Source: Pegea sp. RAD2-039
Taxonomy: Eukaryota > Chordata > Thaliacea > Salpida > Salpidae
Direction: 5' to 3'
Length of the DNA stretch: 64,000 bases
Assembly: GCA_034620365.1 (NCBI GenBank)
Contig: JAQGEQ010000079.1
Span: 372,001-436,000, forward strand
Part shown: piece after piece, positions 24,310 through 51,800 of the stretch
Layout of the letters: the number at the start of each line of letters is the position of its first letter
How positions within the stretch are numbered: position 1 is the stretch's first letter
Position numbers and translations under genes: made by a program
Notes under the pieces: generated by a model
What the model saw: the letters and a program-made list of their open reading frames with translations, nothing else
The model's database searches: none
What the model was told of the DNA's origin: nothing

Positions 24310-24875
24310 TTAATATGGTCGAATAGTTGCTTTGACTCCTCGCAAACTCCACTTTGAAGGTGATACATTTTCTTTTGTTATTTGGAGAAAGAACAAAGGA
24401 GAAGATGAAGATGTATCCAAATAAACGGGAAGACCAGATGTAGATCTGAGATGTCAAAACTGATCAACTGTTTGAAGATTTAAAACTTCACCTGTTTGCT
24501 TGATTGTTCATTTGCTTCTTTTCGCTGAGAAAATTGATACGGATAATTGGAAGAGCAACAGATGGTGATCTTGCTGCTTGATCTATCAACTCCAAGTTGG
24601 ATTTATCCCAATCTGCGCCCCACAGATAAACTCCTGATATAAAGAAGCCATCCGAAGGTGGATCTCTCAACTGTATGGAAGATCATAGCAAGAGTGAGGT
24701 CTTTAAGATCAACACTAACATGATCTTTTTCACGAAGAGTAACTTCAGCATGTAATATTATTCTTTCAGAAGCACCCGAAGGACTCTTTAGTGCCTCTTG
24801 ATGGAGGAGCGATAAAAGAGCTTGAGGTCGAGTGAATGCTCCCAGCCAAAAGACTGCAGCTGCTTGCCTCTTACC
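24310..24875 (-). other. Dynein C-terminal domain, last three resolved exons
   Basis: Exon 24875-24720 carries the conserved FWLxxFxxPQAxL segment. Exon 24670-24492 carries DGFFISGVYLWGADWD and ALPIIRINFL. Exon 24445-24310 carries LPVYLDTS and the terminal W-x-L-R-G-V. Phases agree at both junctions. The ending is shorter than in most axonemal heavy chains. Confidence 0.8.
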
Positions 24876-27800
24876 CTGAAGGATGAATAAGTCCTAAGAC
24901 ACTGTAGAAGATCAAAAGCATTACCTGAAGTTGCAATATTTTATCGAGATGTTGATGACGTAATGCTAACTGGGTAAGCCATTGCAATGGCGTGTGCAGT
25001 GAGGCAGAACGGTCGTTTGCGGCCCATTGGTCAGGAGTTTTCATATCAATAAGTTGAGTTGCTACGATGACGTCATGAGGACTGAGAAATGCACCGAAAC
25101 GTTCAAATGTATCGAGCGATTGTTGAATGTTGGAAAGACATCTAAGAAGAGAAAGGTGTTCTTAAATTGTCAGCGCGATATATCGTCATCACCGCTTAAT
25201 TTCGAGAAGCAGAGAGTTAAGTTGACGGACTTCAAAACGCATAAATTCGGTGAAATGGATTCCACTGCTCGATAGCATTTTATTCAATTTATCTTCAATG
25301 TGATTCTAGAAAGAGTTGATAATTAAATCAAATTTACTCATCAATAAACGAAACCTTATTCCATAGTCTCGGAAGTTTTGAATGAAGCTGATGTATCTGA
25401 AGACACAACTGACTTCTCGATTTTTGATTTTGAATGATATTGGCAGAATGAGTTGTAAAAACTCCTCTAAAGACACAAGATAGATACTTTTTGGATTTAA
25501 TCAAGACATTTACCTGTTGATAATCGAAGGATCAGATGATTGGTTAGTGATGGTTGTGACTGGTTGCTGATTGGTTGGTGTTGGTGGGCGAGGGAAAAGT
25601 TTATGAGATAAAGTGGAAAGTTGAAAATCAAATATTAAATTCAATCTGAAGATAAAGTTGTAAAAATTACAAGATTCGAATCTTTCAATCAAACCTCGTG
25701 AAGATGTACTGTTCATCTCCTAGCACTAAATCTTGTGAATTATGTAAATTACAAAGCTCTACTGTTTGCAACTGTTTTTCATTGAGGGATTCCAGCTGGT
25801 TTAGAATCGTTTGTTGTTTTACATTTGGTAGGAAGAACACGTTTGGGATTCGATAAGTATCTAAAAATTAATTAAATTTTAATTAAACTTATTTCTGTTG
25901 TTAGTAAAAATATTAACTATTTCTGAATATTACTAAAATCATAAATTTTGATCTATTATTAACTTATTTATTAATATTTATTATTTGTAATTATCAAGTG
26001 ATTTATCTCACACAACCTTTAACTAATTCGTAATCTTTTTTTGTGCAATTTATTGAAATGAATTGCTCAATGATAGAGTTAAGAGTCTTCAAATCTTCTT
26101 CATTTGATGTAAATCTTCCATAGACATTTTGACATAATTGAAACCTACAAATGAATCATTTCAAAAATGGAGTTTATTTGAATGAGATTCAAACCTGATG
26201 GAATTAAAAGAAAAATTTTTTGAAACGGAATCACTACATGAATCAACTTTAAGTATTTCTCTTCTGAGTACCTCAAATGATTCCTGTTAAACAGAAATTG
26301 ATTAGAAAGGGAAGTTTCAAAGATCTTGAAGAAGATGTAGACTCCTTGGAATTCCTTTAATCTTGATTTCAATTTACTACTTGGCAACTTCGATTGTAAT
26401 TAAATTATTTTTTTATAATAAAGATTAAATGATTCAAGTCCCACAATTTTACTTTTCAGTTTCATAAATGAACGAAATAAGTTTATGAAACTTTCAAGTA
26501 ATCTTAACTCTTGAAAAGTCAAGATCAGTCTAGATGGTGATTGAATCTTCTTCAAAAAAGAAGATCTCTTATCTGACTAAGAGTAAAAAACCTTCAGTTG
26601 TTCAGATGAGATGTTTTCTTCCAAGACTTTTCCATCTTTCCAACCATTTTTAAATTTGCATCTTAGCAAAATGACTCCATGCATCATACTGACGTTGTGT
26701 AACAATGGCAACCATTCATTTCGTGACGTCATATTAATGACGTCATTGGTCAGGTAGTTGGCAGTAAAGTTGAGTATTGTTGACTTGATAGTCTGTTTGA
26801 ATCGAGAATTAGTGACGTCATCAGTAATATTGTGATGTCTCACCTCAGGAGGATGTAATATGACTTTATAGAATTGATGAAGGAGTCTTGTTGAGATCTG
26901 TTCATCTTTTTCACATATAAGGAATAAACGGAAGTTAGGAGAAATTTTATGATTAAAAGATTTTATTTCTTGCATCAGTAATTGGAAAAGATGAAGATTT
27001 GAATTAAAATCAGAAATTAAAATCCAACAATTCTGAAAATTTCACTTTTATTTTATTTGATTATCAAATATTGACAACCACTTACACTTGTCATTAATTT
27101 CTGAAATTCTTTTCGAATTTTATTTTTATCTTCATTTTTCAACAGTAACGAGATCACGTGACTTCGAATATCCAACTTTCGTGATGTTTCTTGAAATTTT
27201 TTAATAAAATTTTCACTTTCACCTGAGAGAAGTTATCACTTTTAAATAACAAATTTTTGATTAAAGACTTTTTTTTCACCATTTTCAGAAATTATCAAAA
27301 TTTGTTGAAAATTTTTTACAATTTTTATAAAATTTATTTCTTCAAATTTCAAAATTTTTTTGCCCAAAATTTTCAGCACAAATTCATTTGTAGCTTCCAA
27401 TAATCGATCACTTCGAAGAGCTCTGCAAACCAATATATATGACGTCATCAAATTAACACGAAAATGACGTAATCACCTGACAACAAGTAGTCGTTGTAAC
27501 AACGTCAACTGTTCGTCAGTTTTATCAGGTAATTTGAATTTAGAGGAATTTTCCGGGTAATCCCCTTCACAAAGAAACCGCCATTGCACCTCACGTCCGT
27601 CACGACTCATTTTATCAAATAAATCATGAAACCATTCATAAGAAGTTGCAAGAATCTATTTATTTAATCTAATTAATTGACAACATCAATAAACTGATAA
27701 ATTACTTTTAAATTAGCAAACTGCTCATCGTTCATCCATTCATATTGTTTCGTCGATTTAGCGCGCGTTTCTGACGTCATAATATGCTCACATGACGTCA

Positions 27801-30800
27801 TTACTGCGTGACCAAACTCAGGTGAGATCAAATATTCACGTTCTCCAACACCCACGTGACCTGAATAAGCCAGCTACAGATGACGTCATCACTAACGTCA
27901 GTTTACCGTTTGAATTTTCAATTTGAAGAGAAAGAAGTATTTCAAAGATGATTTGATCGCGTTCAAACAACAATTCGCGCGTTGTGACGAAAGCAAATCG
28001 CGTCATCTCATTACAGATCGTTTTCAAAGACGAACGCTCCGAGTCACGAATGCTGACGTCATACAAGCTACAAGACAATTGATGACGTCATCAGCTTATG
28101 AATTCTGCTACTAACTTCGTTAAATGGTTCCAACTCAGCTGATACATTGGATTCAACAGCTTTAATGACGTCATAACTTCGAATAAAAGAGCTCCTCTAG
28201 TGGCTATTTGATCGAAACTGGATTTACTTTGAAGGATTGAAGAGTGATGAAGAAGAATTTTATTAAAACTGAAAAAATATTAAAAGATGAAAAAATCGCA
28301 AAAATCTTCGGGAGCTTCGAGAAAAATCCCGAAGATCTTTAGGTAACTAAGACAACCATGCATCTTTGTAACTACCTCTCAGTAGTCTCATTCAATCGAC
28401 TCATTGTTTCATTCAACTTCTTCATCAGATTTAAATCATTCATCAATCTTTGTTCACCAATCATCATTTGTTTCATCTCTTCTTCTTCTAATTCCATCTT
28501 CTTCATCAGCTTCATCTTCTCAACTTCACAACTCTTCCAGTCTTCATTCAGTTTCAACTTCTCTTTCCTCACAAACCTACAAAACAATCAGTTCCTTGAT
28601 GACGTCACAAGTGATGACGTCACAAGTGATGACGTCACCTGTCCAAGAGTTCTTGATGAAGAGATTCATTTGATCGTTGAAAATTGATAACTGATGTGTA
28701 AGCTGCAACTTCCGGCGGGATCATTTGAGGAGCGGAAGTTGTATGAAGGAACAACCGGAAGTTGCTGTCACATTCAACTTCCTCTTTTCCAACCTGGACA
28801 CAAAACTTGAAGATCTTTTTTCAATTTCCGAATCTTCTTCACCAGAATTTTGAACTTTGAAACTTTGGCGTCGATGAAGCGTGAAGTAGATTTGAACACG
28901 TGATCGAATCGTACGTCATCAACAAGCTTTTGTACGTCACAATACGTCACTAGTAGAATATTTCCTTCACTCAAACAAGTCTCAAACTGATTACGTAGAA
29001 TCTGAATGACGTCATCACGCTTTTATTTGCATAAAACTAGATATAAGATTATTACATCATAATCGATAATTTGAATATTGTTGCCATGGAGATTTTTGAG
29101 CCAATCAATTACACTTCCTTCTACATCACAAATAAGCGGCCATGACGTAGTAGATGACGTCATCACACATACTTGATTAAGTGAAGAAGGGTCGGTTGGT
29201 ATATTTAAAATATTTAAGTTCTGAATTTCAATTGGCGATTTAAGAAATTCTGATAAACTAAAAAAAAATTAATTTGTAAAAAAATCCAGAAAAGTCTCCG
29301 GAAGTAACCTGTAGTTGTTGAAGATCAGTTTACTTGGAGTTGGTAAGTTGTAGTGACGACAAACATGTGAATAAAAAGACATCATTCTTTCATGACCTTC
29401 TGAAGTCATTGACGAGCAATAAGTGAGGTAAGCGGCTGCTAGGATACAGTTAGTGACCAGTTGTTCCTTGGTAACCAACTCAGTGAATTGTTCATTCCAT
29501 TTTCTTTCAATTTGTTTCAAACTAAAAATTTCGATTTAAAATTTACAGTTGTGAGCATTGTGACGTCATCGTACTTTTGTAGCGTCGTCAATGATGACGT
29601 CAAACGTTCTCGACAGTTTTCAAGTTCAACTTTTAATTTAAACTTTTTTACAATCACTTCATCATATCTGCAACAAAATAAATCTTCATCATCTAAATGT
29701 TCCCTGATGACGTCATCATACTTGGCCTGTAATTGGTCAATTGAAGATTGAATTACACAAATGTCATCTTCTCCTAATCCTTCAATTGACGTCATCGAAT
29801 CAGGAATGACGTCATCACTCATATCAGCAATTTGATTGGCTTCTTCATCAAGAGCATTTTTCTGCTTGAAGAAAAGCTTGTAGATTTGAGAAGATAGTTT
29901 TAAACTTTGTACTCTTTCTTCTTCCTGCATCTTCTTCATCTCTTCTTCCAAATGATCAAGATGATGAATAGCGGTTTGAAGAGGCGAACATCTTTTCGTG
30001 TATTCCAAAATTGAAATAACAAACTCGACTAACACCGCAGCATCTTCACTACTATAACGAGCAGATGCGATTGTGATTCCATCACCTTGACAACAAATAC
30101 ATCATGATGACGTCATCACTTCATTTGTCAACCACCTTGTTGTTGTTTTGGTTTTGGCATTGACTTGTTACTAAGCAACGATCCTTCACCAGTGATACCT
30201 TCATCTTCATCGCTTCTTTTCATCAAATAACTTTCAACTTCTTCCATCACTCCCGCTTCCAATCCATTCTGCCACTTCACACTGTAATCATCGTTCTAAT
30301 CATCTTAATCTTCAGAAGACATCATCACCTGTGTATCATCTCCACAAATTTCGGAGTATCATTCATAAAATTTTGCATAAATTTCCATTTATTCAAATCG
30401 ACAACTTTCTTTTTCGCTGAAATTCGACAATTGAATTTTTGGGGCACCTAGGTGCTGCTTTTTTACCTATTTTCTTTTGTCGTGACTTTTTTGTGATATG
30501 AGGACTCCATGTTGTAGATGAAGACATCCTGGAAGATACATCTGATCTTCTCGTAAACTTATCAGTTGATTGTTCACCACCTAATGACGTCATCCATGGT
30601 CGGGCACCAACTAACACCATCACCATTTCTAAAACCTAAATGATGACGTGAAGTTTGGGGTCTGACCACGTGACCACAATTGACCTGGGCAACCAGTAGT
30701 GGCGGATTTTTAAAAGCTTTTAATCGTTCAATACAATTGCGATCGACTTTATTTCTCCAATATTCGACTTGAGTCTTCGCCAACGTCAAACTCAACCTGC

Positions 30801-33800
30801 CAACCAATAAACCAATCACGAAACGCATCACCTGATGACGTCATCACCTCGCGTCATCTACTTGTAATCTTGCCGCTTTCATGTCGCCATCGATTCGATT
30901 TTTTTTCGAGTTTAGTTTAATTTCTTTCATTTCATCAAATCTGACGTCATATTCATCATGTTCTGCGCAGACTAACTCGTCGATGACGTCATCATCAACT
31001 ACGTTGTCAACCTCTAATTCCATCTGTTACATCACGAAGCTATATAAAACAGTGATGACGTCATCATCAGTACCTGCATGAAAACTTGAAGAGTAGATGG
31101 TTCTGAGCTGAAAGTGACTTTCAACTTTTCCATTTTTGTCATTTCATTTTTTAATTCCAAAAACAATTTAGTTGAATTCCTCTGACATTCATCCAAATTA
31201 TCTTCAAGCGCCTAAAAAAATTGAGAAAAAAAAAGTAATATTCGTTGAAAAATATCAGATAAGAAATAAATAAAAATATCTTATTAAAAGAGAAAAAATT
31301 TTCAAAAATAAACATCTTAAGATCAAAATAAGATCATGAAAATGAGATGAAGATCAAATACAAAGAAGATTGATAAAAATTAACAAATAAATAAAATTTA
31401 AAAAAATAATATAAAAATGTTGTGACGTCATTACTTCGATTATATCTTCCATAGTTTTAACATCACTTCGAGTTTCATCTAATATCTCTAAAGATCTTCG
31501 TAATTTTCTAGTTTCTAAATCCAATTTTTCACTTTGCATTTTATACAATTCATGTAAACACATCATAAAACTCCGAAAAGTTGAAGGGCCAATAAAGAGC
31601 TCCGCAGCCGACTTTTGATCACATCCTACCCGCTGTTGAATCTTTATTTGCTCCTCAACAATTTGTTTCGTGTATGGCAAGTTATCAACTTCCAGCCGCT
31701 GATTACGTATCACTTCTTTGTCATTAATGACGTCACAGGTGGTTTCTACTATAGAGATGGTTGGTGTGACGTCACCAGCCCATGGGGCCGGCTTGCAGTC
31801 CCGTAAAGTCAGACTATAAAACATCAGTTAGTGTGACGTCAGAGTTTTCTCGGGGACTTCACCTGTGTATGTTTGCGATTGCCATTGTTAAAGCTTCGCG
31901 CGTTTTATGTAAAATGTCATGCGCCACCTGGTGGTAGTTTATAAAGAATTCTGCTTCTTGAATAAGTACTTCTTGTGACCAGTCACTGATCCAAATCACC
32001 TGTATTAGCGTTGATGACGTCATACAATAACGTGACTTGGCACTCACCTGACACCTAGTGACAACAGCTGGAAAACAGCACAGCGCATCACGAATTAAAT
32101 CATGAGCGGGAGGAAGAGTAAGGATTATATGCAAATTAGTTCGCACTCTTCGTGTAAAGGAACGTTTTAGATCTTCACAAAGATTTCCACCGGAATTTTT
32201 TCGCATTTTTGGTTCTAGAACCTGACACAGATTGTTACAACATCAATTTGATGGATGCTGAGACTTACTTGAAGAAAACCTTCCATTTCATCATTTGAGA
32301 ACAGATGTGGGTAATCCCCTGAACTGAGGAGACTATTCACTGCATCCAGAAAGACTTTTTCCGATTTCAAATTGCGGCCAGTCAGTAAAATGGCAGCTTG
32401 TCCACCTTCGATACCAGCGAGGCGGACAACTGTTCGAAGACTGTTTAGGAAAGTAGGAAGTGATGTAGTGTCGATATGAAGAAGTTGAATCCCTGTGAGA
32501 TGAAGAGTCAATCTGACAAGTTGAGAAAGATGACTCCCAATTTGACCGATCATCAAAATATTTCCGCTGAAAAAAACGCGATTAGCAAACTTCTTGCGTA
32601 ATGACGTCATCACACCTTTGTTCATATGACAATACTCGATGAAGACGAATCACGTGACAAATGACGTGTTCAGTGAGGATGACGTCATTGAGACTTTTAT
32701 GACGCGATTGTTGATTTTCATTGAAATTTGAAAGATGACTTTGTAAACAATTTAATAATTTTTTGGGACTTTCAATTGTTCTTAAAACTTTCTTCATTTT
32801 TAACTTCTTCTTTCGCTCATCATTCATTTTCGCATCAGCTGATTAAATTTATGACGTCATCACTACGCGACAAATATGATGTCATCACTAACTTGGAAAA
32901 GTTACGAAATATTTGGTGAGATTTAGAGCGCCATCTTCAGACCATTGATGGAAAGTTTCAGAAAGAAGTTTTTCAACATTTTTATCAAACCACGTGACGT
33001 CAGCAACTCGTGACAAACTGTCGCGAATCACGTGTTCTAATTCATGTTTCCATAGTGATATCACAAAAATTTCATCGTTGTCATGGTTACATCGCATACA
33101 GCGAGCAATTTGTGAAATTTGATGCAATGAAAACGCGTACAGCTCGCGGCCTGGCATCGCACTGTAATGATGACGTCATCGAAACGAGAATTCAGTGATG
33201 ACGTCATAGCTTACCAGGGTTTCAGCGTCTTTCTAATCAAATTGTAAATTTTACAAGTTGTTGTTGAAATTGCTTCTAAAAGATCATTTGAAATTGAATT
33301 AATATTTGTTTCAAAAATTGAATAAATGACGTCATAAAGATCATCATTTGACGCTGTCTCCAATCGAATAACAGCGAAATGACGTAAGAAGCGTGGATCA
33401 AAGTTAAGATCAGAATTGGAGTTAGTTGCCATGGTTGCAATGATCTGAAAATCAAATAATGATTAAAAGAAAATTAGATGAAGATGAGAAAGTAAAAATT
33501 ACTTGATAATCTTCAATAGTTCTCCATTCAAAAGAATCTTTCAATTTATAGATGACATCATCATCTACTAAAGTACGCAAGAGCTCGTTGCACGGTTGAA
33601 TACACTTTTGATTGACAGCTGGCAAGTTGATGTCATCAATTAACAGCTGAAACAAGTGATTGATGTTTTATTCCAACATTCAACTATCAGTTTATCACCT
33701 GAAAAGTTTTCTTATTTTTTGCTCCGTATACGAATCCGTGTCGATGACGTAATTGACTCTCGATGAAGTTGTGAAGTTGTGTAGCTGATGAAGCGTGACT

Positions 33801-36800
33801 AAAAACTAATTTGCATAAATTCGTGGATTGAGGTGCTGTATTAAACATTAGCATCAGTAAAAGGTTGAATGAGTAATTGAATCAAATACGAGTTGAGTTG
33901 AGGATGTTGTCAAGGAGACAGCTCTTCCCACTTCCTCTTTCTCCAACTAACATCACGTGACTTCCTGATGACATCATCAGTTCAATCAACTTTCGAGATT
34001 TTATAGTTTTGGAAGTTTCGACAAAAGTCTGTAAGAAATCAATGTAATCCACAAATCCAGTTTTATTTCAAAGATCTTACGTCATCACCGATGACGTCAC
34101 TAGTATTGTAAGTGGTCTCAGGCAGCAGGGCTAACCACGTGTCCCATTCACCTGATTCGTCGACGTAATAATCGAAAAGTGAAGCATCATTGTCGTAATC
34201 TGGAAGACTACATCATCAGTTAGTTGAAGAAGTCTCTATTTCATCGAGACTTACGAATTTGAAAGATTTTTAAGAAGTTGACTGAACTTAAGAGCAACTG
34301 ATGTTTCCAAAAGTGACCCAAATGACCAAATCAAAGAAAAAAGGGCCAAACGCTCGATATGTAGGTCAACTTTCATTTGCTGGACATCTAACAGCTCAGT
34401 GAGAAATGCAAGACAGGTTTGAAAAAGTCCAATTTCACAAACAGCCAAAATAGTTTCACTGTTGAAGTGAAGACATTAAATAGATGTGGATTGAGAGCAA
34501 GTCTTTACTTGGGATGTTGCTTGAAGATCAAATTGCAAATTGCTGGAAGAATTTTACAAAAGCATTTTTCAAGGACTTGTTGTTCTTGTTCTGATCTTCC
34601 CGAACTCCACGATTTGAAAATATCCTTCCAACCAATGACGTCACAATCAACAAACACGGTACCCTGCAAGGTATGTGATCCGTTTGTCACGTGGGCCACA
34701 AGTCACGTGGGCCACAAGTCACGTGTAACTCACCATTTTACTACAAATAGAAGGTGGACTGTCCTGTAGATGAGAACATTCGAAAATAATTTGAAGATTA
34801 TTCTTCAAATCTAAACTTTCTCCATTTTTTAGATTTAATTTCTTTTTATCGATTGCGCTGATGACGTAATCCATCCAATCACCAGCTGGTGTTGAATCAA
34901 AGCATATCCATGTTACACTACGATTCTGTAAAATCAGACTTTCATGCAAGATGATGAAGATGAAGAAGTTTTTACTCGAATAGCTTTGCGCCACACAAAA
35001 CTGATCAAACCATCATTCCAATCATTTAGATGATTTGAAGATCCGAATATCAGATTAGAATCCTCAGTTATCAGAGGATTCAGACGAACTAGTTTGTGTC
35101 CAGCTACAAAAAGATGTTTTGTTATAGAACCACTACAGGTGAAGTCCCCTCAAGACCTAATCTTCATCTGATCCACATCACATTTTACTAACTAGAGTCA
35201 TTAAGGAGTCAATTAAATGAGTCTGTAAACGTGATTGGTTGATCAGCGATTGTTATTAGCATATGAGAAGGAATCAATGGTTTATAATAATCGATTTTGA
35301 ATATAATGATTGAGTCCCATTAATTTGATGATCGAAGATTTGAATATTTAGTTTCTGAACCTTTTTCATTTGTTAAATGTTGAAGAGATGAAGTTAAAAC
35401 AGATAAGATTGAAGTCTTTCCTTTTCCAACAGATCCTACAATTATTACTCCTTGTTGTAAGCTTGTTACTAGATGTAGCTGAAGTACTTTAGCAACAAAG
35501 TTGTCGTTGGCAACCAAACCTCGTTGCTTAGCAACCTAGAATCGCAAGTGTCATCTCTCAATTTATTTTTTATGAAAAACGGAAATACTTTTTTTATAGC
35601 CTCCTTCAAATTGTAGCTGTCAGATACACCTGATGACGTCATCGGCAGTATCGTAGAAGGCCACGTGACGCCTTCAAAAACATCACGAACAATACTGATA
35701 AATAAAGCTTTCTGATTGGTTGAAAATGAAGGTGAGATAGTTTCAATTAGAGCCTGAAAAATTGATGAAGTCACTTCTATATAGACATGGCAATACCACC
35801 ATGGTTACCTGGGCAACCAGTCCATGATCCATTTTTGCTTGATTAGTCATTAACTGAGAAGTTGATGACGTCACGCAGCTTTTCCGCGCTCTTTCTACAG
35901 CTGAGCTTCTTATAGTCATTGAAGTAGTTCTGAAACAACAGCGTTACATCATAATGACGTCATCATGATGACGTCATATGCTGACAAAACTAACTTGACA
36001 GTTGGTGATTGGCTACTAGATCTTACACTTCGTTGTGACTCAATTCGAGTTTCTTGCTGCATAACTACTTGTTAGTGACGTCATCAATGATGATATATTA
36101 CCTTGTTTAGTATTCCTTTTTGATCAGCAGCGACCCTTAGTGACGTCATCACCATTGAAACTGTGACGTCAACATCGAGTTGATCACGTATCATTTGACG
36201 TGACGTCATCAAACAATCAGCAAGAATCTTTATCGATTTAAAACCAAGAGAACTGCAGCGTGATCTGATGATGACGTCATCATCTACATTAGCCAACCAC
36301 ATGGTTCGGAATTGAGCTCTGAAGTCAGCTGATTAATAGGAGGAGGGAAAATGGAAAACCGACTCTACCTGAGTTTTGGTGCCAATTTTGGCTTTTGACC
36401 AAAAGTCGCTAAAATCAGAATTTCTTTTTCTAATTTTACTTCAAATCCCGAAATGTTAATTGTCTTTAACTACAACAAACCCTTGTATTGATGACGTCAT
36501 CAGTCACGTGTAACGACATCACTAACCTTAAGTTTGAGAGCTGTAAACAGTCGACACATGAAATCAAGAATTACGTCAACAGTGATGCTGTCAGCAAAAT
36601 CCAGTTTTTCCAAACTCGCCCAACAACCGTCCATCGTCAAGCCCTGAAATATGATGACGTCACTACCACAAAACTGGTCACGTGATGATGAAACATACTC
36701 GAAGTAGTTTAGAAAGCGTTGTTACATTGAGTGCGTTGCTATGACGACAGTTTATAACAAGTAGAAATTGAGCTGCTAGCGTTGCTAGGCAACTAATAGT

Positions 36801-39800: not shown

Positions 39801-42800
39801 TCAAAATCCAAAAACTTCTCGAAAAGTCCATAAAGAGCTCGGAGCAATTCCAGCTCTTTTCCAGTTCGTTTCAATTCATCAAATAATTTGGGGTTTTCAG
39901 ACCCCAAGAATAACTGAGTCTGATTTAAAGTCTTCTGCTTTGTCTCCAACACTTCAAATCGTTTCCCAAAATCCTCCAACCTCCGAAGAGCTTCAGCTGG
40001 TCGGATTCCAGCAACTGCGGGACCTTGAGCATCGAAACAATTTCGTAATCTAATCACATCAATCACAAACATCTTCAATTGTTTATCTAATTCTTGAACA
40101 AAAAAACTTCTTCTTTCTCTGATCAGGGATTTCTCCTGATCTTCAGATAACTTCACTAATTCTGACCAACGCATGCGTAATGACGTCACCTGTCAGGACA
40201 GAAGATGTTGATAGTGGTCAGCAACTGATGTTGAAATCACCTGATCAAGCTCAGTTTTTGGTAATCGGAGTTGATATGATATCAGTTTGTCATATGAGAT
40301 TTCTATTGGACGATAAATTGAATCAATTTTGTTTTCAAGTTCTTGAATTTCATTCACGAGGCTTACTGTCTCATTTAATTCCTCTAAAGTGTTTACCTTT
40401 TAAAAATTTTAAAAATAAATAGTCTAGAATGACTTGAATCAAAAACCAATTTTAAATTGTTTAAAATAAATTCATAAAATATTTAACTGATTCAAAACCA
40501 ACTTCAAATATTTCCAAACCATTTACTATTTAGTTTTAATCAAAGGTAAACATTAAAAGTCAATTAAATTTAATAAAAACTCAGTTTGAAACACTTTCAA
40601 ATGAAACATCAAATACCGGCGAAAGAATTTTGTTGAGTAAATCACTTCGATATTCAACAACTGAATTCAAATCATTCCGAGATTTCTGATGAAGGATCTG
40701 AAGACATTAAATCAGTTAATCAAAGATCACATGAGCACTTCATCATTGTTTACTTTTACAAACTTGTTCTTCCACAATCCAACGAATCCTTTCAAAGAGT
40801 CTTTAATCTTCATCATCCAAATCTCAATAATTTCAATCTCTTGTTTTTCTTCAATATCAAAAATTTCTTCTTCAACTTTTTTCAATCTTTCAACCTGAAT
40901 ATAAAAATTTAGAAAAATAATTTGGAAACACTTTTTATCAAACCTCGATACGGATTTGATCAAGTGATGGATCACGTGACATGAATGTGGAATGAAATTT
41001 ATATAAATTTTCTTTAAACAAAAAATTGAATTGTGAAATTTTCGTCACTTCAACATCAACTCGACTTTTTAAATCTACAAAAGAAGAACAGATCAATTTA
41101 CAAAAGTGATGACGTCATTAATCACTAACTCTGTGTGACGTCATTAAGATGTTGAAGTAAGCTTGAGATTTGAGATGAATCGTGAACTGTGAGGAAGAAG
41201 GATTGATCTTCATTTCCACTCCACCAAAAGATGTCTGAAGTTTGAAGTTTGAAATATTTCAAGAAATCATTTTGTAACCTTTCGTGACATCAACAAATCC
41301 AGTGATCACGTGATCAATGCTTCGTTGAACGTCTTTCAAATCAGGTTCTAGAACGATTTGCGGGATGTTGAATCTAAAATAAATATACGAATCAGCAAAA
41401 GAATCCTAAAATCATAATCTTTCACTTCATCTCCAAAATAAATTTGATCGTTTTTTCATCTTTAGACTTTCGATAATTTTCTTGAAATCTTTAAAAAAGT
41501 TAATTTAGATATTTTTGTCACGTGATCTCAGACTGACTTATCATTGGACAATTGACATCCGAGAGAAAATGCAAATGACGTAAGCGTTTGATGCAATGAT
41601 ATCATCGTGACGTCATATACACGATTGCAATAGTGATCTATAAAATAAATAAATGACGTCATCATCACTACGTCAGATGTAGATCATTGCCTAGCAACTG
41701 TTGTGATGCTTGTTTATCAACTATTTGCTGCTTGTTTTGATTGGCTGATTCTGATGATGACGTCACAAGCGAATGACCTTTCAGCAATTTTCGTTTCGCA
41801 AAATTTTTTCGCAAAATTTCAGCATCTAAAAAAAAGCAAAAATAATTTCCTGAAAAAATCTTCCCTGATTCAATCACTTGGTTCTGCACTGTTGATTCTT
41901 GATGACGTAACAGCTTCGATGACGTCATTTAGGTTTTCTTTAATCTCCAAAATGGTCTTTTTCAACTCTTTCGCTTTTTTCTCGATCTCAATTTTCATCA
42001 TCTAAACAAATCAAGATTTAATCATGACGTCACTAAGAATAGAGATGAGGACTTCGACAAAGTGAAGAGGATGCCAACTTGAGGAAGACATCAAATCTTC
42101 ATCAAATAAAATTAAATTTTTTATCTTCAAAATATTTTCTTCAATTTTTTTCCAAATTTTTTCAGATTTTTCAACAATTTTCTTCAATTTTTCAACAACT
42201 AATCTGAAATAGTATCACAAACAGCATGACATGACGTCATTAATACAGTATGACGTCATCAAACCTAACGCGATTAAGAAATCCGTCAATGTTGACTGTA
42301 TTCCAAGTGATCAAGATTAAACCAGATTTTAAAACTTCAATCACTGCATCGACATGTGGCTGGAAGTGTGACGTCATCAGCGCGGGAATCGATTGTTGCA
42401 CCTTTTAATTAATTGCTGTGACGTCATCGTCGATAAATGACGTCATACTCACCTGCTGAAATTGATCTAGTTGGTATTGAAGAAGATCACGAAAGCTTTT
42501 AAATTGTTCCTCAGATTTAAGGATCTTTGTAGCAGATTCAGGGATTTTTAATCCAATTTTTGTCATCTTTTTTGCCTCCAGGAGCAACTGATGGATGCTG
42601 GGATTGTGGTTGAGGGTCAATTGACCAGAGTCGATTCGAAAAACCGGAAACTGAAAGATGTTATTTGTGACTTTTGTTTGAAAACACTTTTTTGTACTTT
42701 TAAATGAATGGCCGAGGGATTTATCGATTTCAGCCATTTTTGGTACCATAGAGTTTCATATGTCATCAATACTGTCGCTAATTTGTTAAAAAATTTCACA

Positions 42801-45800
42801 TTTCTTGAATTTTCTAATTTTCTTCCAAAACATTCTTCAATTTCCTGATAAAATTTTGAGTTTTCAAAATTAAAAATTAAAAATTTAATGTTGGGAAACC
42901 TTTATCGGTTGTTGAATGTAACGCATTAGTTGACGTGACCACTGAATAGCACCAACTACAGGTGGATGGTCACGTGGTGTGATTGGTAAGTTTTTATCAG
43001 TTTCATAAAGCTATAAAAAAATAAATTAGACAAATTGTTGTGAAAAAAAATTTCTACTTTTTCAATTTGAACCAATCGATCAAAATATTCATTTGATGAT
43101 GACGTCATTAAATCGTAGATTACGTCACTAACACGTGGCCGTTGATAGACGGATTTAAATCTGAGAAGAAAAAGGATTTGAAAAGAGAGAAAGTTTTTAG
43201 ATTTTTACTTTGAAATTGAAGGTAAAAAAGTCAAAATTCTTTTCGATGAAATTGGAAACGTGAGTCGTAGATACGCGACGATGACGTCATCAAAATCACT
43301 TGCTAGATTCTCAAAATATGCAAATGCATCAATAAATCTACAAAATAACTACTGATGACGTCATCATTCTATTACTGGCTAATCTTTTCACTTTTCTTTG
43401 CTGCTCTTCTGATGAAGATCTAATAGTGATGATGACGTCATCTCTGTCTTGATGAGGTCGATAATATTTTTAAGATGCAAAGAAAACAATTTTGAGATTT
43501 CTTCATCTTTCCATCTTTCACTTCTCGAGTTTTGTGACGTCATCACCATAGGATCACTTGTATCTGTGGAAGATGAGGTCAGATTGATGTTGATAGTTTA
43601 TTTTATTACCAGATAAAGAAGTTGAAGAGTTGAGAGCCTTTTCTATTTTAGACGAAGACATCATCTCATTATTCTGTAAAAAAAATTCATTTTTTTTACT
43701 TTTCTACAAAAAGATTTTTTCATTTTTTAGTTCAAATAAATTTCAAGAATTTTTTAATAAAAAACAAAATCAATTAATGAAGTGAATATTTTATGAAATT
43801 TATTCTTATTTCTTTTTTAAAAAAAACTTTAAGTTTCAAATATTTTAAAAAAATTCAAAATAACTCGAAGATAAATCTTCAATTATTGATAGTTTTAAAT
43901 TTATTTAAATATTTAATTCTTTTCAATTTCAAGTTTTAAATTTTTCACCAAATTTTTTCTGACTGAATTTTCTTCATCTGACGAATAAATGGAAGCAGAA
44001 GTCGATGACGAAACACTGACGTCATCACTTGCACAAGACTTCAATCGTCGAAGCGTATCAACATTAACACGTGGCAAACCAACTGAATCAGTAGCTGAAG
44101 ACATATCAGATGAGTAGCTGGTATTTCAGCTTGGTTTATATAATTTACCTAAGCGTTTAAAATCTTGCAAAATTAATATCACTTCCACCAAAACTTTCAT
44201 TTTTCCACAAATCAAGTCAAAAGATGACGTCATTGCTGTGACGTCATTTGCTGGCGTGTAACCATCATCTACACAATCTGATAACAAATGACGTCATTAT
44301 TGTTTCATTACGTCATCAATACTAACCTGGAATCAGTGACTTTCTGCCTCGTTTTGGTTTTTTACTCATTGATGAGTCGAATGACGTCATTGATTGATTG
44401 ACGTTAGATGACGTCATCGGTGCACACGAATCATGAAGAGTTTGAAGAAATTGAGAAAAGTGAGAATAAAGAAGAAGACAAAATTGAAGTCTGTGAAAAA
44501 AATCGATGAAAAATGAGGAAATTAAGATAAATACGACACCTAGTGAGCAAGTTTCCACTTTTCTCCATCACTAACTCCTTCTTCTTAACTCCCTTGTTCT
44601 TACTGATCTTATAAACTGGAGGTTTTACCTCCTTTGAACTCAGCTGATCACTAATCAACTTCCACATTACGTCATCACCAATGACGTCATCAACAAAACG
44701 ACGGCATAATTGAGCCAATCGGTTGGCAATCTGGAAGTATTTGAGATGAGTGAAGAGGAAGAGATTAAGAAGAAGATCACCTTAGAACAGATCACAACAA
44801 GATATCCGTTCCGGTAGTAAAACTTTGAAGCTGAATCAACTCCGCGAATTGTTGTTAGAAGACGAGGAAGAGTTTTGTTGATCACTTCCGCCGGATGTTG
44901 ATCTTCATCAAGCTCTTCAAAGACTTTTCGTAAGCTCTCCAAATATTTCATCTTCATTTTTGTCTCTCCTAGAACATTGAAAATCCTGTGACGTCATACA
45001 AGTGTTAAGTCTATGATGTCATCGAAGTGTTGTCTTGGTAACCGACATTGATTCACAATTCTTCCACATACGCAACATCTTTGATCTTGATGACGTCACG
45101 ATTGCAATGATCTCTTTACATTCTCGGCTCTTTAATTGAATGTTGATCTTTGAAAGCTTTTGAAATCTTCGATTCCATTTTTCGAGCTCTGAATGAAGTC
45201 CTGAATGAAGATCTGAAGACCTGAAGAAGAAGAAGATCATCTTTTAATTTAAGGATTAGCTTAGGTAGTCATGAATGATTTATAAATATCAAAAAGATAC
45301 TTTTGTTCCAAATTACAAAATATCTATTTAATCATATAAATTTAAATTGAAAAGATGTTTGTGAAATTTTCATTAAAAATTCTATTCTTATCTTTGTTAT
45401 TTTGGTAAACTTTCGTTTCAGTTTGTTTGTCAGTAGTTTGTTTGTCAGTAGTTTGTTTGTCAGTAGTTTGTTTGTCAGTAGTTTGTTTGTCAGTAGTTTG
45501 TTTGTCAGTAGTTTGTTTGTCAGTAGCTTATTTGTCAGTAGTTTGTTTGTCAGTAGTTTGTTTGTCAGTAGTTTGTTTGTCAGTAGTTTGTTTGTCAGTA
45601 GTTTGTTTGTCAGTAGTTTGTTTGTCAGTAGTTTGTTTGTCAGTAGTTTGTTTGTCAGTAGCTTGTTTGTCAGTAGCTTATTTGTCAGTAGTTTGTTTGT
45701 CAGTAGTTTGTTTGTCAGTAGTTTGTTTGTCAGTAGTTTGTTTGTCAGTAGTTTGTTTGTCAGTAGCTTGTTTGTCAGTAGCTTATTTGTCAGTAGTTTG

Positions 45801-48800
45801 TTTGTCAGTAGTTTGTTTGTCAGTAGTTTGTTTGTCAGTAGTTTGTTTGTCAGTAGTTTGTTTGTCAGTAGTTTGTTTGTCAGTAGTTTGTTTGTCAGTA
45901 GTTTGTTTGTCAGTAGTTTGTTTGTCAGTAGCTTGTTTGTCAGTAGCTTATTTGTCAGTAGTTTGTTTGTCTGTAGTTTGTTTGTCAGTAGCTTGTTTGT
46001 CAGTAGCTTATTTGTCAGTAGTTTGTTTGTCAGTAGTTTGTTTGTCAGTAGTTTGTTTGTCAGTAGTTTGTTTGTCAGTAGTTTGTTTGTCAGTAGTTTG
46101 TTTGTCAGTAGTTTGTTTGTCAGTAGTTTGTTTGTCAGTAGTTTGTTTGTCAGTAGCTTGTTTGTCAGTAGCTTATTTGTCAGTAGTTTGTTTGTCAGTA
46201 GTTTGTTTGTCAGTAGTTTGTTTGTCAGTAGTTTTGTTTGTCAGTAGTTTGTTTGTCTGTAGTTTGTTTGTCAGTAGTTTGTTTGTCAGTAGTTTGTTTG
46301 TCAGTAGTTTGTTTGTCAGTAGTTTATTTGTCAGTAGTTTGTTTGTCAGTAGTTTGTTTGTCAGTAGTTTGTTTGTCAGTAGTTTGTTTGTCAGTAGTTT
46401 GTTTGTCAGTAGTTTGTTTGTCAGTAGTTTGTTTGTCAGTAGCTTATTTGTCAGTAGTTTGTTTGTCAGTAGTTTGTTTGTCAGTAGTTTGTTTGTCAGT
46501 AGTTTGTTTGTCAGTAGTTTGTTTGTCAGTAGTTTGTTTGTCAGTAGTTTGTTTGTCAGTAGTTTGTTTGTCAGTAGCTTGTTTGTCAGTAGCTTATTTG
46601 TCAGTAGTTTGTTTGTCAGTAGTTTGTTTGTCAGTAGTTTGTTTGTCAGTAGTTTGTTTGTCAGTAGTTTGTTTGTCAGTAGCTTGTTTGTCAGTAGCTT
46701 ATTTGTCAGTAGTTTGTTTGTCAGTAGTTTGTTTGTCAGTAGTTTGTTTGTCAGTAGTTTGTTTGTCAGTAGTTTGTTTGTCAGTAGTTTGTTTGTCAGT
46801 AGTTTGTTTGTCAGTAGTTTGTTTGTCAGTAGTTTGTTTGTCAGTAGCTTGTTTGTCAGTAGCTTATTTGTCAGTAGTTTGTTTGTCTGTAGTTTGTTTG
46901 TCAGTAGCTTGTTTGTCAGTAGCTTATTTGTCAGTAGTTTGTTTGTCAGTAGTTTGTTTGTCAGTAGTTTGTTTGTCAGTAGTTTGTTTGTCAGTAGTTT
47001 GTTTGTCAGTAGTTTGTTTGTCAGTAGTTTGTTTGTCAGTAGTTTGTTTGTCAGTAGTTTGTTTGTCAGTAGCTTGTTTGTCAGTAGCTTATTTGTCAGT
47101 AGTTTGTTTGTCAGTAGTTTGTTTGTCAGTAGTTTGTTTGTCAGTAGTTTTGTTTGTCAGTAGTTTGTTTGTCTGTAGTTTGTTTGTCAGTAGTTTGTTT
47201 GTCAGTAGTTTGTTTGTCAGTAGTTTGTTTGTCAGTAGTTTATTTGTCAGTAGTTTGTTTGTCAGTAGTTTGTTTGTCAGTAGCTTGTTTGTCAGTAGCT
47301 TGTTTGTCAGTAGTTTGTTTGTCAGTAGTTTGTTTGTCAGTAGTTTGTTTGTCAGTAGTTTTGTTTGTCAGTAGTTTGTTTGTCTGTAGTTTGTTTGTCA
47401 GTAGTTTGTTTGTCAGTAGTTTGTTTGTCAGTAGTTTGTTTGTCAGTAGTTTATTTGTCAGTAGTTTGTTTGTCAGTAGTTTGTTTGTCAGTAGCTTGTT
47501 TGTCAGTAGCTTGTTTGTCAGTAGTTTGTTTGTCAGTAGTTTGTTTGTCAGTAGTTTGTTTGTCAGTAGCTTGTTTGTCAGTAGTTTGTTTGTCAGTAGC
47601 TTGTTTGTCAGTAGCTTGTTTGTCAGTAGTTTGTTTGTCAGTAGTTTGTTTGTCAGTAGTTTGTTTGTCTGTAGTTTGTTTGTCAGTAGTTTATTTGTCA
47701 GTAGTTTGTTTGTCAGTAGTTTGTTTGTCAGTAGCTTGTTTGTCAGTAGCTTGTTTGTCAGTAGTTTGTTTGTCAGTAGTTTGTTTGTCAGTAGTTTGTT
47801 TGTCAGTAGTTTGTTTGTCAGTAGTTTGTTTGTCAGTAGTTTGTTTGTCAGTAGCTTGTTTGTCAGTAGCTTGTTTGTCAGTAGCTTGTTTGTCAGTAGT
47901 TTGTTTGTCAGTAATTTGTTTGTCAGTAGTTTGTTTGTCAGTAGCTTGTTTGTCAGTAGCTTGTTTGTCAGTAGTTTGTTTGTCAGTAATTTGTTTGTCT
48001 GTAGTTTGTTTGTCAGTAGTTTGTCTGTCTGTAGTTTTGTTTGTCAGTAGTTTGTTTGTCAGCAGTTTGTTTGTCAGTAGTTTGTTTGTCAGTAGTTTGT
48101 TTGTCAGCAGTTTGTTTGTCAGTAGTTTGTTTGTCTGTAGTTTTGTTTGTCAGTAGTTTGTTTGTCAGCAGTTTGTTTGTCAGTAGTTTGTTTGTCAGTA
48201 GTTTGTTTGTCAGTAGTTTGTTTGTCTGTAGTTTGTTTGTCAGTAGTTTGTCTGTCTGTAGTTTTGTTTGTCAGTAGTTTGTTTGTCAGCAGTTTGTTTG
48301 TCAGTAGCTTGTTTGTCAGTAGCTTGTTTGTCAGTAGTTTGTTTGTCAGTAGTTTGTTTGTCAGTAGTTTGTTTGTCTGTAGTTTGTTTGTCAGTAGTTT
48401 GTCTGTCTGTAGTTTTGTTTGTCAGTAGTTTGTTTGTCAGTAGTTTGTTTGTCAGCAGTTTGTTTGTCAGTAGTTTGTTTGTCAGTAGTTTGTTTGTCAG
48501 TAGTTTGTTTGTCTGTAGTTTTGTTTGTCAGTAGTTTGTTTGTCAGCAGTTTGTTTGTCAGTAGTTTGTTTGTCAGTAGTTTGTTTGTCAGCAGTTTGTT
48601 TGTCAGTAGTTTGTTTGTCAGTAGTTTGTTTGTCAGTAGTTTGTTTGTCTGTAGTTTTGTTTGTCAGTAGCTTATTTGTCAGTAGTTTGTTTGTCAGTAG
48701 TTTGTTTGTCAGTAGTTTGTTTGTCAGTAGTTTGTTTGTCAGTAGTTTGTTTGTCAGTAGTTTGTTTGTCAGTAGTTTGTTTGTCAGTAGTTTGTTTGTC

Positions 48801-51800
48801 AGTAGCTTGTTTGTCAGTAGCTTATTTGTCAGTAGTTTGTTTGTCAGTAGTTTGTTTGTCAGTAGTTTGTTTGTCAGTAGTTTATTTGTCAGTAGTTTGT
48901 TTGTCAGTAGTTTGTTTGTCAGTAGCTTGTTTGTCAGTAGCTTGTTTGTCAGTAGTTTGTTTGTCAGTAGTTTGTTTGTCAGTAGTTTGTTTGTCAGTAG
49001 TTTTGTTTGTCAGTAGTTTGTTTGTCTGTAGTTTGTTTGTCAGTAGTTTGTTTGTCAGTAGTTTGTTTGTCAGTAGTTTGTTTGTCAGTAGTTTATTTGT
49101 CAGTAGTTTGTTTGTCAGTAGTTTGTTTGTCAGTAGCTTGTTTGTCAGTAGCTTGTTTGTCAGTAGTTTGTTTGTCAGTAGTTTGTTTGTCAGTAGTTTG
49201 TTTGTCAGTAGCTTGTTTGTCAGTAGTTTGTTTGTCAGTAGCTTGTTTGTCAGTAGCTTGTTTGTCAGTAGTTTGTTTGTCAGTAGTTTGTTTGTCAGTA
49301 GTTTGTTTGTCTGTAGTTTGTTTGTCAGTAGTTTATTTGTCAGTAGTTTGTTTGTCAGTAGTTTGTTTGTCAGTAGCTTGTTTGTCAGTAGCTTGTTTGT
49401 CAGTAGTTTGTTTGTCAGTAGTTTGTTTGTCAGTAGTTTGTTTGTCAGTAGTTTGTTTGTCAGTAGTTTGTTTGTCAGTAGTTTGTTTGTCAGTAGCTTG
49501 TTTGTCAGTAGCTTGTTTGTCAGTAGTTTGTTTGTCAGTAGTTTGTTTGTCAGTAATTTGTTTGTCAGTAGTTTGTTTGTCAGTAGCTTGTTTGTCAGTA
49601 GCTTGTTTGTCAGTAGTTTGTTTGTCAGTAATTTGTTTGTCTGTAGTTTGTTTGTCAGTAGTTTGTCTGTCTGTAGTTTTGTTTGTCAGTAGTTTGTTTG
49701 TCAGCAGTTTGTTTGTCAGTAGTTTGTTTGTCAGTAGTTTGTTTGTCAGCAGTTTGTTTGTCAGTAGTTTGTTTGTCTGTAGTTTTGTTTGTCAGTAGTT
49801 TGTTTGTCAGCAGTTTGTTTGTCAGTAGTTTGTTTGTCAGTAGTTTGTTTGTCAGTAGTTTGTTTGTCTGTAGTTTGTTTGTCAGTAGTTTGTCTGTCTG
49901 TAGTTTTGTTTGTCAGTAGTTTGTTTGTCAGCAGTTTGTTTGTCAGTAGCTTGTTTGTCAGTAGCTTGTTTGTCAGTAGTTTGTTTGTCAGTAGTTTGTT
50001 TGTCAGTAGTTTGTTTGTCTGTAGTTTGTTTGTCAGTAGTTTGTCTGTCTGTAGTTTTGTTTGTCAGTAGTTTGTTTGTCAGTAGTTTGTTTGTCAGCAG
50101 TTTGTTTGTCAGTAGTTTGTTTGTCAGTAGTTTGTTTGTCAGTAGTTTGTTTGTCTGTAGTTTTGTTTGTCAGTAGTTTGTTTGTCAGCAGTTTGTTTGT
50201 CAGTAGTTTGTTTGTCAGTAGTTTGTTTGTCAGCAGTTTGTTTGTCAGTAGTTTGTTTGTCAGTAGTTTGTTTGTCAGTAGTTTGTTTGTCTGTAGTTTT
50301 GTTTGTCAGTAGTTTGTTTGTCTGTAGTTTTGTTTGTCAGTAGTTTGTTTGTCAGCAGTTTGTTTGTCAGTAGTTTGTTTGTCAGTAGTTTGTTTGTCAG
50401 TAGTTTGTTTGTCTGTAGTTTGTTTGTCAGTAGTTTGTCTGTCTGTAGTTTTGTTTGTCAGTAGTTTGTTTGTCAGCAGTTTGTTTGTCAGTAGTTTGTT
50501 TGTCAGTAGTTTGTTTGTCAGCAGTTTGTTTGTCAGTAGTTTGTTTGTCTGTAGTTTGTTTGTCTGTAGCTTGTTTGTCAGTAGTTTGTTTGTCAGTAAT
50601 TTGTTTGTCAGTAGTTTGTTTGTCAGTAAAAAGTTTAAAAGTTAATCATACTCACCATAAAAACTATTTACAAATATCTAAGATTGATCATCTGTTTTCT
50701 ATTTTAATTTTTCTATGTGAGATGATTAAGAAGTTTTTACAAACTTGTTATCTTTCTCTTTTATTTCTTTGATGAGACCTTCAACAATTTCAATCCATTC
50801 AATAAAAACATCCTCGCATCTTCTCATCAAGTCTTCATCATTCAAAATTTGATTTTTTTCTAATTTTACAATGAAAATTGGAAGTCTTAAAATCTGTTCA
50901 AATTGACAACTTTTCAATTGGAAACACTTTTCCGCTTTTTCAACTAACTTCATTTGATAAACTTTCATTCTCGCCTAATCCATTCATCAATGACGTCACC
51001 AAACGATCAATACTGTCCAACGTGTGATCGATGACGTCATCATCACGTGATTTCTGTTGTACTTGTTTCACAGTCGGTATAATTATCTACAAACAGCACT
51101 GATGATGTCATCTATCTTTATGACGTCATCACTCACTTTTGATGTCAACATAGCGAGATGACGTAATGGATTATTCTTCAACTCGGACACACAAATCTGA
51201 TCGTGGATGTTCATCTGATCCACTTCTACTTGTATGTTGATCCTCATCAGATAAACACAAACAAAATCTTCGGGTTTTATACGCTGAATGACATCATAAT
51301 TGAATACTAGAGATTTTCTAATCATATTACTTACTTTGATATTTATCAAGTGTGAAGTCATAATAAGATCCTGTTGTTGCCATGGTTGGTTACTAGGGGG
51401 ATGGTGACCATATATAAAAAGTTTAGAAGTTCCACCACAACTGAGAAATTGATTTAAAAGTTGGAAGTTTTGAGATTCAAGAAAAAAACTTTCTAAAGCT
51501 GTTGGACTGAAAAAATGTGAGAATAAGAAAATATATTTCAGATTATTTTCATTTAAAAATATTGAATAGAATTTAAAAAGTTTTGTGAGCTAATAACAAT
51601 TAACAAATATAAGTTTTTCTTATTTTGGGTTTTTTCTCTCAATTACCCAAGAAGCAATTATAAATAATTCTAATTTAATTCAAATAAGTTTTGCTTTAAT
51701 TTATTTGTAATGAGATATAACTTCTAGAAAATAATTTTATTTAGCTGTTTAAAATAGATAATTTTTGTTTTCTACAAGAAATAAAGCTAAATTATTTATG

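Follow-up and report, generated by a model that had tools for sequence, protein, structure and literature searches.

A CREB/ATF-site palindrome is massively overrepresented in a tunicate genome and fills gene bodies including exons

The locus studied here raises the question of why one 8-bp palindrome, TGACGTCA (hereafter "the word"), should be repeated through the whole body of an animal gene. The window, i.e., the entire 64-kb stretch of DNA that we analyzed, contains 100 exact copies, 52 of them in the form ATGACGTCAT, where base composition predicts 0.53 per 64 kb. Ninety-two of these copies lie in a single gene, seven at 59,352-60,946, and one at 23,335, and in the window the words respect the limits of gene bodies. 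The main features are as follows:

23335..23342: lone TGACGTCA in a LINE-like reverse-transcriptase fragment
24313..51409, minus strand: axonemal dynein heavy chain gene of the DNAH5/DNAH8 kind, filled with the word (spliced model)
25068..51128: 92 exact TGACGTCA; model exons hold 49 and introns 30, 4 span borders, and 9 lie outside model exons and introns
27154..51050: nine TCACGTGA (E-box palindrome) inside the dynein gene; a tenth at 59,722
45420..50628: 15-bp minisatellite of 346 units without TGACGTCA, in a dynein intron of the model
56687..57343, plus strand: U2AF35 gene, a single open frame and neighbor without TGACGTCA (CpG o/e 0.79)
59352..60953, plus strand: seven TGACGTCA in a G-patch-domain gene stretch (open frames at about 58.6-61.2 kb)

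The palindrome in a dynein gene and across the genome

The initial annotation had described a highly iterated palindrome in an animal that has a central CpG, matches the CREB/ATF site letter for letter, and is concentrated in a single gene here, with about 92 copies at 25.0-51.2 kb around a word-free minisatellite of more than 5 kb. All of this holds for the window, with exactly 92 copies (25,068-51,121) and the minisatellite at 45.4-50.6 kb; the word-free zones that it listed stand as well, except that the supposedly empty first 25 kb contain the copy at 23,335, at which two related LINE copies have CAATGTCA and TAATGTCA instead, without gaps. The dynein gene model is home-made with 34 introns, most of ca. 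50 bp. Its best match in the PDB is DNAH5, a DNAH8-like protein is by far the best match among Phallusia proteins (exons located with tblastn), and Pfam finds DHC_N2 as well as a weak Dynein_C below its cut-off. In the G-patch-domain stretch, several words lie in the open frame and encode DDV and VTS. A single rRNA was matched in Rfam at gathering threshold, and an ARAGORN scan found no tRNA.

Across the genome (105.7 Mb), TGACGTCA occurs 27,792 times vs. 969 for the reversed word and 695 for TGTCGACA, a control of identical letters that is also CpG-centered, and the extended form TGATGACGTCATCA has 1,972 copies vs. none for its reverse. The excess is a genome-wide effect that exceeds ordinary regulatory-site behavior by far. 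The copies are clustered on C1, where 38 of 99 gaps are shorter than 1 kb vs. 6.2 expected (among the TGACGTCA copies listed). Solitary copies make up 33 of the first 100 on C1. It had been considered that genome-wide density might turn out near expectation, which these counts contradict, or that the copies might be part of one longer dispersed repeat. The latter fails for nearly all of them: the flanks carry a signal at only three positions per side, a symmetric TGA-word-TCA, and neither shared flanks nor target-site duplications were seen outside of tandem arrays and the LINE word, which were also the only places in the sampled sequence where relatives of TGACGTCA copies were found. Likewise, a 3.5-kb piece of the dynein gene with 21 words has no second location in the genome (in a search that ignores simple repeats), and when we sought a haplotype copy of this gene for dating gains and losses, the sole match was the gene itself. 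Some short tandem arrays contain the word, and those in L012, L014, and at 60.9 kb of the window are similar to each other. The idea that the word is hypermutable within such arrays was dropped because in one of them it varies to a similar degree as its flanks, with 13/128 word letters changed vs. 15/176 flank letters (16 units, counted by hand).

Exons of the dynein model contain the word nearly as densely as introns (3.75/kb vs. 4.21/kb). Exonic copies encode Met-Thr-Ser or Asp-Val at weakly conserved and mostly ungapped positions, and 116 of 147 word codons align with Phallusia dynein without gaps, so most copies look substituted rather than inserted. Local enrichment amounts to 166 in exons and 362 in introns. 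If copy number reflects a balance of mutation and fixation, these values would correspond to scaled biases of ~5.1 and ~5.9, respectively (natural logs), and each single word would thus be nearly neutral.

Related words, CpG content, and gene classes

CREB/ATF sites tolerate TTACGTCA and disfavor the AP-1 site. In a word-rich set of 68 kb, whose enrichments are not unbiased because it was trimmed to word-bearing parts and L010, L011, L012, and L014 were chosen for words already seen there, the CRE occurs 240 times vs. 1.0 expected, together with TTACGTCA (28 vs. 1.9), TGATGTCA (34 vs. 5.2), and YCACGTGA (36 vs. 2.5), and neither the AP-1 site (4 vs. 13.5) nor the half-swapped TGACGTGA is enriched. 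The consensus, its tolerated variants TTACGTCA and TGATGTCA, and the disfavored AP-1 site in word-rich regions match what is expected of CREB/ATF sites; a location in promoters or enhancers, which is likewise expected of them, does not seem to apply, with 92 of the 100 window copies running through one gene body. The ATF4-like TGATGCAA (10 vs. 3.7) and the ETS-like CCGGAAR (19 vs. 6.3) are slightly raised, so the profile is not purely that of CREB. An apparent enrichment of the X-box (RFX) word in word-rich DNA was due to one 15-bp minisatellite in L012. The genome has 12 bZIP_1 matches without striking expansion. In a study of mammalian proximal promoters (PMC2267717), CRE, E-box, and CRE-T are listed as promoter words, CREB is reported to bind both CRE and CRE-T, and methylation is cited as inhibitory for CRE and E-box sites. 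The enrichment of the same words here, i.e., CRE, YCACGTGA (E-box), and TGATGTCA (CRE-T), supports a CREB/ATF reading, although the tunicate word, unlike the identical promoter CRE, fills gene bodies including exons, with ~4 copies per kb of the dynein gene.

Word-poor DNA contains 17 words vs. 0.8 expected and 10 YCACGTGA vs. 1.5; TGATGTCA, the deamination product of the word, is near expectation there (9 vs. 6.8), and word-poor genes therefore do not resemble former word genes. E-boxes tend to lie close to words (12/41 are no more than 500 bp away, where random placement gives 4.5%), but this proximity may partly reflect composition since TGACGTGA is also close above chance despite its unenriched number (4/19); for TGTCGACA, the count is 0/12.

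The presence of words is linked to CpG content in our sample. With a CpG o/e cut of 0.80 that was picked post hoc and with some loci chosen for words, seven of nine ORFs at or above the cut carry words (41 in total, excluding the window minisatellite) vs. 1 of 27 below it (a single copy); the two wordless exceptions have CpG o/e values of 0.85 and 1.02. Across 16 loci at round coordinates, divided into 80 bins of 2 kb, words and CpG o/e show a Spearman correlation of 0.50 that leans on L022, which holds 43 of the 66 words in these 160 kb and whose choice may not be blind given that sites near it were already visible in an earlier list. Nineteen proteasome loci (some overlapping) contain one word in total. 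A contrast of gene classes by Pfam is suggestive only: among nine ORFs of word-rich stretches, seven are unmatched and two have weak matches below cut-off, and two sets of ten ORFs from mostly word-poor loci include MGAT2, Nop53, ubiquitin hydrolase, integrin, methionyl-tRNA ligase, SH3, and SAND alongside several unmatched ones.

Possible causes of the excess

Our preferred reading, which we regard as about evenly poised between right and wrong, is that TGACGTCA is a CREB/ATF-type site sensitive to methylation and that a weak bias in fixation preserves it in gene bodies that are unmethylated. A bZIP protein of the CREB/ATF class would recognize the word and its fuller form TGATGACGTCATCA as its dyad site, and this site would be maintained very densely along the bodies of a class of genes that, judging by CpG content, may be unmethylated in the germ line. 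We infer that this protein would bind double-stranded DNA in exons and introns alike, solely with the central CpG unmethylated. A single site would be worth little, so to speak, and tens of thousands may be maintained by a steady bias favoring fixation, be it selection or drive. The likely role of these sites would be to hold the gene body in an unmethylated, poised chromatin state. The DNMT1-like genes present in this genome are in keeping with the reading. Against it stand the two wordless ORFs of normal CpG content, the words and YCACGTGA copies of word-poor DNA, the solitary copies on C1, the array in which the word varies like its flanks, and the lack of a striking bZIP expansion. A site kept by a DNA-binding protein and a repair bias were both among the causes suggested by the initial annotation, and both are still plausible.

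A possible but on balance doubtful alternative is drive without function, in which germ-line biased gene conversion or mismatch repair favors the word at bZIP-bound sites or sites of methylation-linked repair and leaves the copies behind as a side effect, an idea that has been put forward for certain cyanobacterial HIPs. Copies are strewn across whole genes, and the similar density in exons and introns despite an amino-acid cost suits drive and counts against selected regulatory sites. On the other hand, conversion at break hotspots is expected to remove rather than add them, one-letter neighbors of the word are not depleted (8 of 12 classes exceed expectation in word-rich DNA), and a single sequence-specific repair bias would not predict that a second palindrome, TCACGTGA, tends to adjoin words. 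In favor of drive, a repair-ratchet model of HIPs holds that the exceptional HIP sequences need not be functional to be overrepresented (PMC4390886), and meiotic recombination hotspots of fission yeast are CRE-like ATGACGT sites bound by Atf1-Pcr1 (PMC9775316), one of which, M26, is also active in budding yeast (PMC3534124). M26 shares the ATF/CREB-type word and depends on binding, but it was created by point mutation, a full CRE within ade6 is neither bound nor hot, and genome-wide accumulation is not described in the passages seen (PMC9775316).

It is improbable that the self-complementary word acts at the RNA level, i.e., in pre-mRNA splicing or RNA-RNA pairing. Its respect for gene-body limits and several ~50-bp model introns that start at or near GTGATGACGTCA would fit, but exons contain words as well, the flanks are symmetric around the dyad, and each of the two commonest near-words is present on either strand of the dynein gene (8 and 6; 5 and 6), with rarer ones at 2 and 1 as well as 0 and 4. 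Very little speaks for passive survival, i.e., CpG words merely persisting in unmethylated genes and decaying elsewhere: words do follow CpG o/e, but in word-rich DNA TGACGTCA and TCACGTGA exceed base composition 324-fold and 34-fold, respectively, vs. 5.4-fold for the next CpG palindrome with at least 4 copies (CATCGATG, 4 copies), and the genome shows no abundance of TGTCGACA, so that this is refuted as sole cause. The micro-mobile word that the initial annotation had proposed, or fragments of a dispersed repeat, is highly unlikely in light of the ungapped codons, flank sharing that stops at three letters, and the lack of relatives outside of arrays and the LINE in the sampled sequence, even though word codons face Phallusia gaps more commonly than others (31/147 vs. 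350/3,473) and the word is present in the mutually similar tandem arrays.

Known systems and significance

Cyanobacterial HIP1 (GCGATCGC) is likewise an exact 8-bp palindrome that is hugely overrepresented genome-wide, including coding sequence as for the tunicate word. HIPs are spread through genomes without a tie to one gene class, and their core is expected to be recognized by an orphan DNA methyltransferase. The initial comparison with HIP1 is apt for overrepresentation but not for distribution: the tunicate word has an animal host, is a known transcription factor-class site, and forms gene-by-gene clusters tied to CpG content that are nearly missing from CpG-depleted open frames in our sample. 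It is HIP-like, yet no HIP of the cyanobacterial type. PATCs in germline genes of C. elegans are also short words scattered along gene bodies of a single class, but they are intronic, A/T-rich, and of other sequence. None of the papers that our literature searches listed describes a transcription-factor palindrome that is kept in gene bodies including exons and numbers tens of thousands of copies.

Sperm and muscle of Ciona share one division of genes into body-methylated and unmethylated sets, and the methylation state of the gene body seems not to be set by the promoter (PMC3827831). A bolder version of our preferred reading, which we put forward as speculation with the chances well against it, is that arrays of CRE and E-box form a cis code sorting genes into the unmethylated class, in which methylation-sensitive bZIP and bHLH-Zip proteins, bound over the full gene length in germ-line cells, would keep DNMT1 off, and that this code is strong enough to rewrite protein sequence. 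Such a code of words in gene bodies could be tested directly as a candidate for what sets Ciona-type gene-body methylation states. If drive were the true cause instead, a single 8-mer would be reshaping the proteins of an animal.

Abundance and distribution of the palindrome

The 8-bp palindrome TGACGTCA, i.e., the CREB/ATF (CRE) site with its central CpG, occurs 100 times in the window, 52 times in the form ATGACGTCAT, while base composition predicts 0.53 copies. Exact-word counting found 92 copies at 25,068-51,121, just as the initial annotation had estimated (about 92 at 25.0-51.2 kb), and its claim that 1-25 kb is empty nearly held, with one exception. The copies elsewhere in the window are:

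23,335: single TGACGTCA (exact-word count)
59,352-60,946: seven TGACGTCA (exact-word count)

The gene that hosts the main group encodes an axonemal dynein heavy chain: dynein heavy chain family profiles match minus-strand open frames over 24.3-51.4 kb, a search with one exon gave axonemal dynein heavy chain 5 as its best match among solved structures, and among proteins a DNAH8-like dynein from the sea squirt Phallusia scores far above all others (854 bits; runner-up 513). Tunicates are also the best named relatives for the U2AF35 gene at 56.7 kb, whose protein is identical to one in a JGI metagenome contig, and for an MGAT2 gene of the same genome outside the window. A 15-bp minisatellite at 45420-50628 (346 units, 95% match) lies within a dynein intron of our model and is open on both strands over long stretches. 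Elsewhere in the window, an 18S rRNA match at 53917-54706 (-), whose 790 nt span the whole eukaryotic model (1,831 positions), is a strongly shortened rRNA copy and probably a pseudogene, and two near-identical open frames at 16605-17054 (+; no Pfam family matched) and 21547-22131 (-) are inverted about a LINE-like fragment.

A genome-wide count bore out the suggestion of a highly iterated palindrome, with 27,792 copies of TGACGTCA; its reversal occurs 969 times, and TGTCGACA, another palindrome built from these letters around a CpG, 695 times. Enrichment over the reversal extends to the E-box palindrome TCACGTGA (4,614 vs 237), to the CRE-T word TGATGTCA that is one C-to-T change away (5,503 + 5,567 vs 1,373 + 1,300), and to the 14-bp dyad TGATGACGTCATCA (1,972 vs 0); the half-swapped TGACGTGA shows none in the genome (796 + 777 vs 1,158 + 1,103). 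The first 100 copies on contig C1 are spread over 1.54 Mb and are clustered, with 38 of 99 gaps below 1 kb (6.2 expected), 38 copies in clusters of at least four, and 33 solitary. Within 500 bp of TGACGTCA on this contig lie 12 of 41 TCACGTGA sites (vs 4.5% of random points) and none of 12 TGTCGACA sites. The closeness of TCACGTGA may be partly a matter of composition, since the unenriched TGACGTGA is found nearby as well (4/19). Three of the 41 E-box sites (C1:23084, 555837, and 1212792) form overlapping composites in which the two palindromes start 5 bp apart and share three letters.

The alternative that the copies are part of one longer dispersed repeat failed in the sampled sequence: when 258 words, each with 80 bp per side, were searched against it, only words in tandem arrays and the LINE word at 23,335 had relatives. 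Two relatives of the latter carry CAATGTCA and TAATGTCA in its place, gap-free, and a 3.5-kb piece of the dynein gene with 21 words matches only itself in the genome. The word-bearing short tandem arrays (unit ~20 bp) of sampled loci L012 (about 900-980) and L014 (about 340-420) and of the window (60926-60964) resemble one another despite their distant locations.

Copies in dynein exons and introns

Our spliced dynein model, guided by Phallusia and Biomphalaria proteins, has 34 introns, mostly near 50 bp. Exons hold 49 of the 92 copies (13.07 kb, 3.75 per kb) and introns 30 (7.12 kb without the minisatellite, 4.21 per kb), while four cross an exon-intron border and nine fall outside the model's exons and introns. 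Its best-supported part (24.3-38.3 kb) has 41 copies per 10.98 kb of exon and nine per 1.33 kb of intron.

Exonic copies use only two reading frames, both avoiding a TGA stop (26 and 23 copies), and encode MTS-type or DV-type peptides. The model protein contains 22 MTS (0.6 expected) and 13 DDV (0.9 expected), or 5.05 and 2.98 per 1,000 aa compared to means of 0.10 and 0.19 in 118 other dyneins, whose maxima are 3 MTS and 4 DDV. The Phallusia dynein (P0121) itself has 3 MTS and 4 DDV (0.4 and 0.7 expected), a weak hint of the word in the coding sequence of another tunicate, as single dyneins among the 118 match these maxima.

Word codons are more rarely identical to the Phallusia dynein than other codons (36/147 vs 1,354/3,473) and more commonly opposite a gap (31/147 vs 350/3,473), the corresponding counts for Biomphalaria being given in parentheses (identity 20/97 vs 977/2,883; gaps 23/97 vs 345/2,883). 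For most copies, these counts point to a probable origin by substitution where constraint is weak; a smaller share may stem from small insertions or from errors in the model.

CpG content and gene class

We tabulated 36 open frames of at least 200 aa from the window without its minisatellite, the sampled loci L009-L028, and the proteasome loci. With a CpG o/e cut of 0.80 that was chosen after the table had been seen, and with part of the loci fetched for their words, nine frames at or above the cut hold 41 words (seven of them word-bearing) and 27 frames below it hold one, in a minisatellite frame. In the 16 loci picked at round coordinates, divided into 80 2-kb bins, word number is correlated with a CpG o/e that excludes the words themselves (Spearman 0.50, p 2e-6), though L022 alone contributes 43 of their 66 words. 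The 19 proteasome loci, some overlapping, have one word in all, and CpG o/e is 0.38-0.62 in 16 of them.

In invertebrates, CpG o/e is an established mark of germ-line methylation, and DNMT1-like genes are present in this genome. Seven C5-methyltransferase matches with long open frames (832-873 aa) lie on contigs C57, C249, C32, and C52 (loci L049 and L050). The C57 copy looks DNMT1-like, with the usual catalytic loop, and the C32 copy has an open frame but neither the catalytic cysteine loop nor certain further motifs. The family is expanded, and at least one member is apparently inactive.

Several conserved genes (MGAT2, Nop53, ubiquitin hydrolase, and integrin alpha; among L018, L019, and L023) are long single open frames, unlike the word-rich dynein gene with its many short introns, a hint that broadly expressed genes may have lost introns. 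For Ciona, one study describes that gene body methylation accompanies broad expression, that methylated and unmethylated gene sets are identical in sperm and muscle, and that the promoter is seemingly not their determinant (PMC3827831).

Related sites and possible forces

Among 222 of the 258 words (the other 36 lay in arrays or too close to an end), clear flank signal is limited to three positions on each side, symmetrically T, then C, then A. Because the word is symmetric and lies in either orientation within the gene, in exons as in introns, it looks to be read as double-stranded DNA.

In 68 kb chosen as word-rich, TGACGTCA (240 observed, 1.0 expected) is accompanied by TTACGTCA (28, 1.9), YCACGTGA (36, 2.5), TGATGTCA (34, 5.2), ETS-like CCGGAAR (19, 6.3), and ATF4-like TGATGCAA (10, 3.7). 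AP-1 sites number four (13.5 expected), and BoxA, NRF-1, and SP1 words are absent from these 68 kb, where about one or none is expected. The 173 kb of word-poor DNA contain 17 TGACGTCA (0.8 expected) and 10 YCACGTGA (1.5 expected). A study of mammalian promoters lists TGACGTCA as CRE, YCACGTGA as E-box, and TGATGTCA as CRE-T, with good CREB binding to CRE and CRE-T (PMC2267717). The site profile could be the trace of a CREB/ATF protein plus an E-box protein, which is not proof of binding. CRE sites share their letters with our word, but their promoter placement was not found here.

The likeness to HIP1 that had been proposed holds for number and exactness but not for even spread, given the clustering on C1 and the link to CpG class. 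No methyltransferase is known for TGACGTCA.

Exons are locally enriched 166-fold and introns 362-fold, which under mutation-fixation balance would correspond to a scaled bias of about 5.1 for the former and 5.9 for the latter, i.e., a force close to neutrality whose coding cost is small. Its source may be selection for binding or drive, both conceivable by analogy with what is described of the repair-ratchet model for HIPs (PMC4390886) and of the CRE hotspot in fission yeast (PMC9775316). Passive survival as a sufficient cause is ruled out because TGACGTCA and TCACGTGA, 324-fold and 34-fold over base composition in word-rich DNA, far exceed the next CpG palindrome with at least four copies (5.4-fold, 4 copies), and word-poor DNA contains roughly the expected number of the word's deamination product (9 vs 6.8). 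Drive instead of selection appears rather unlikely to us. That the word is selected as a bound chromatin site of gene bodies has, in our judgment, about an even chance of being correct. The link of the word to CpG-normal genes fits a protein whose binding requires the site to be unmethylated.
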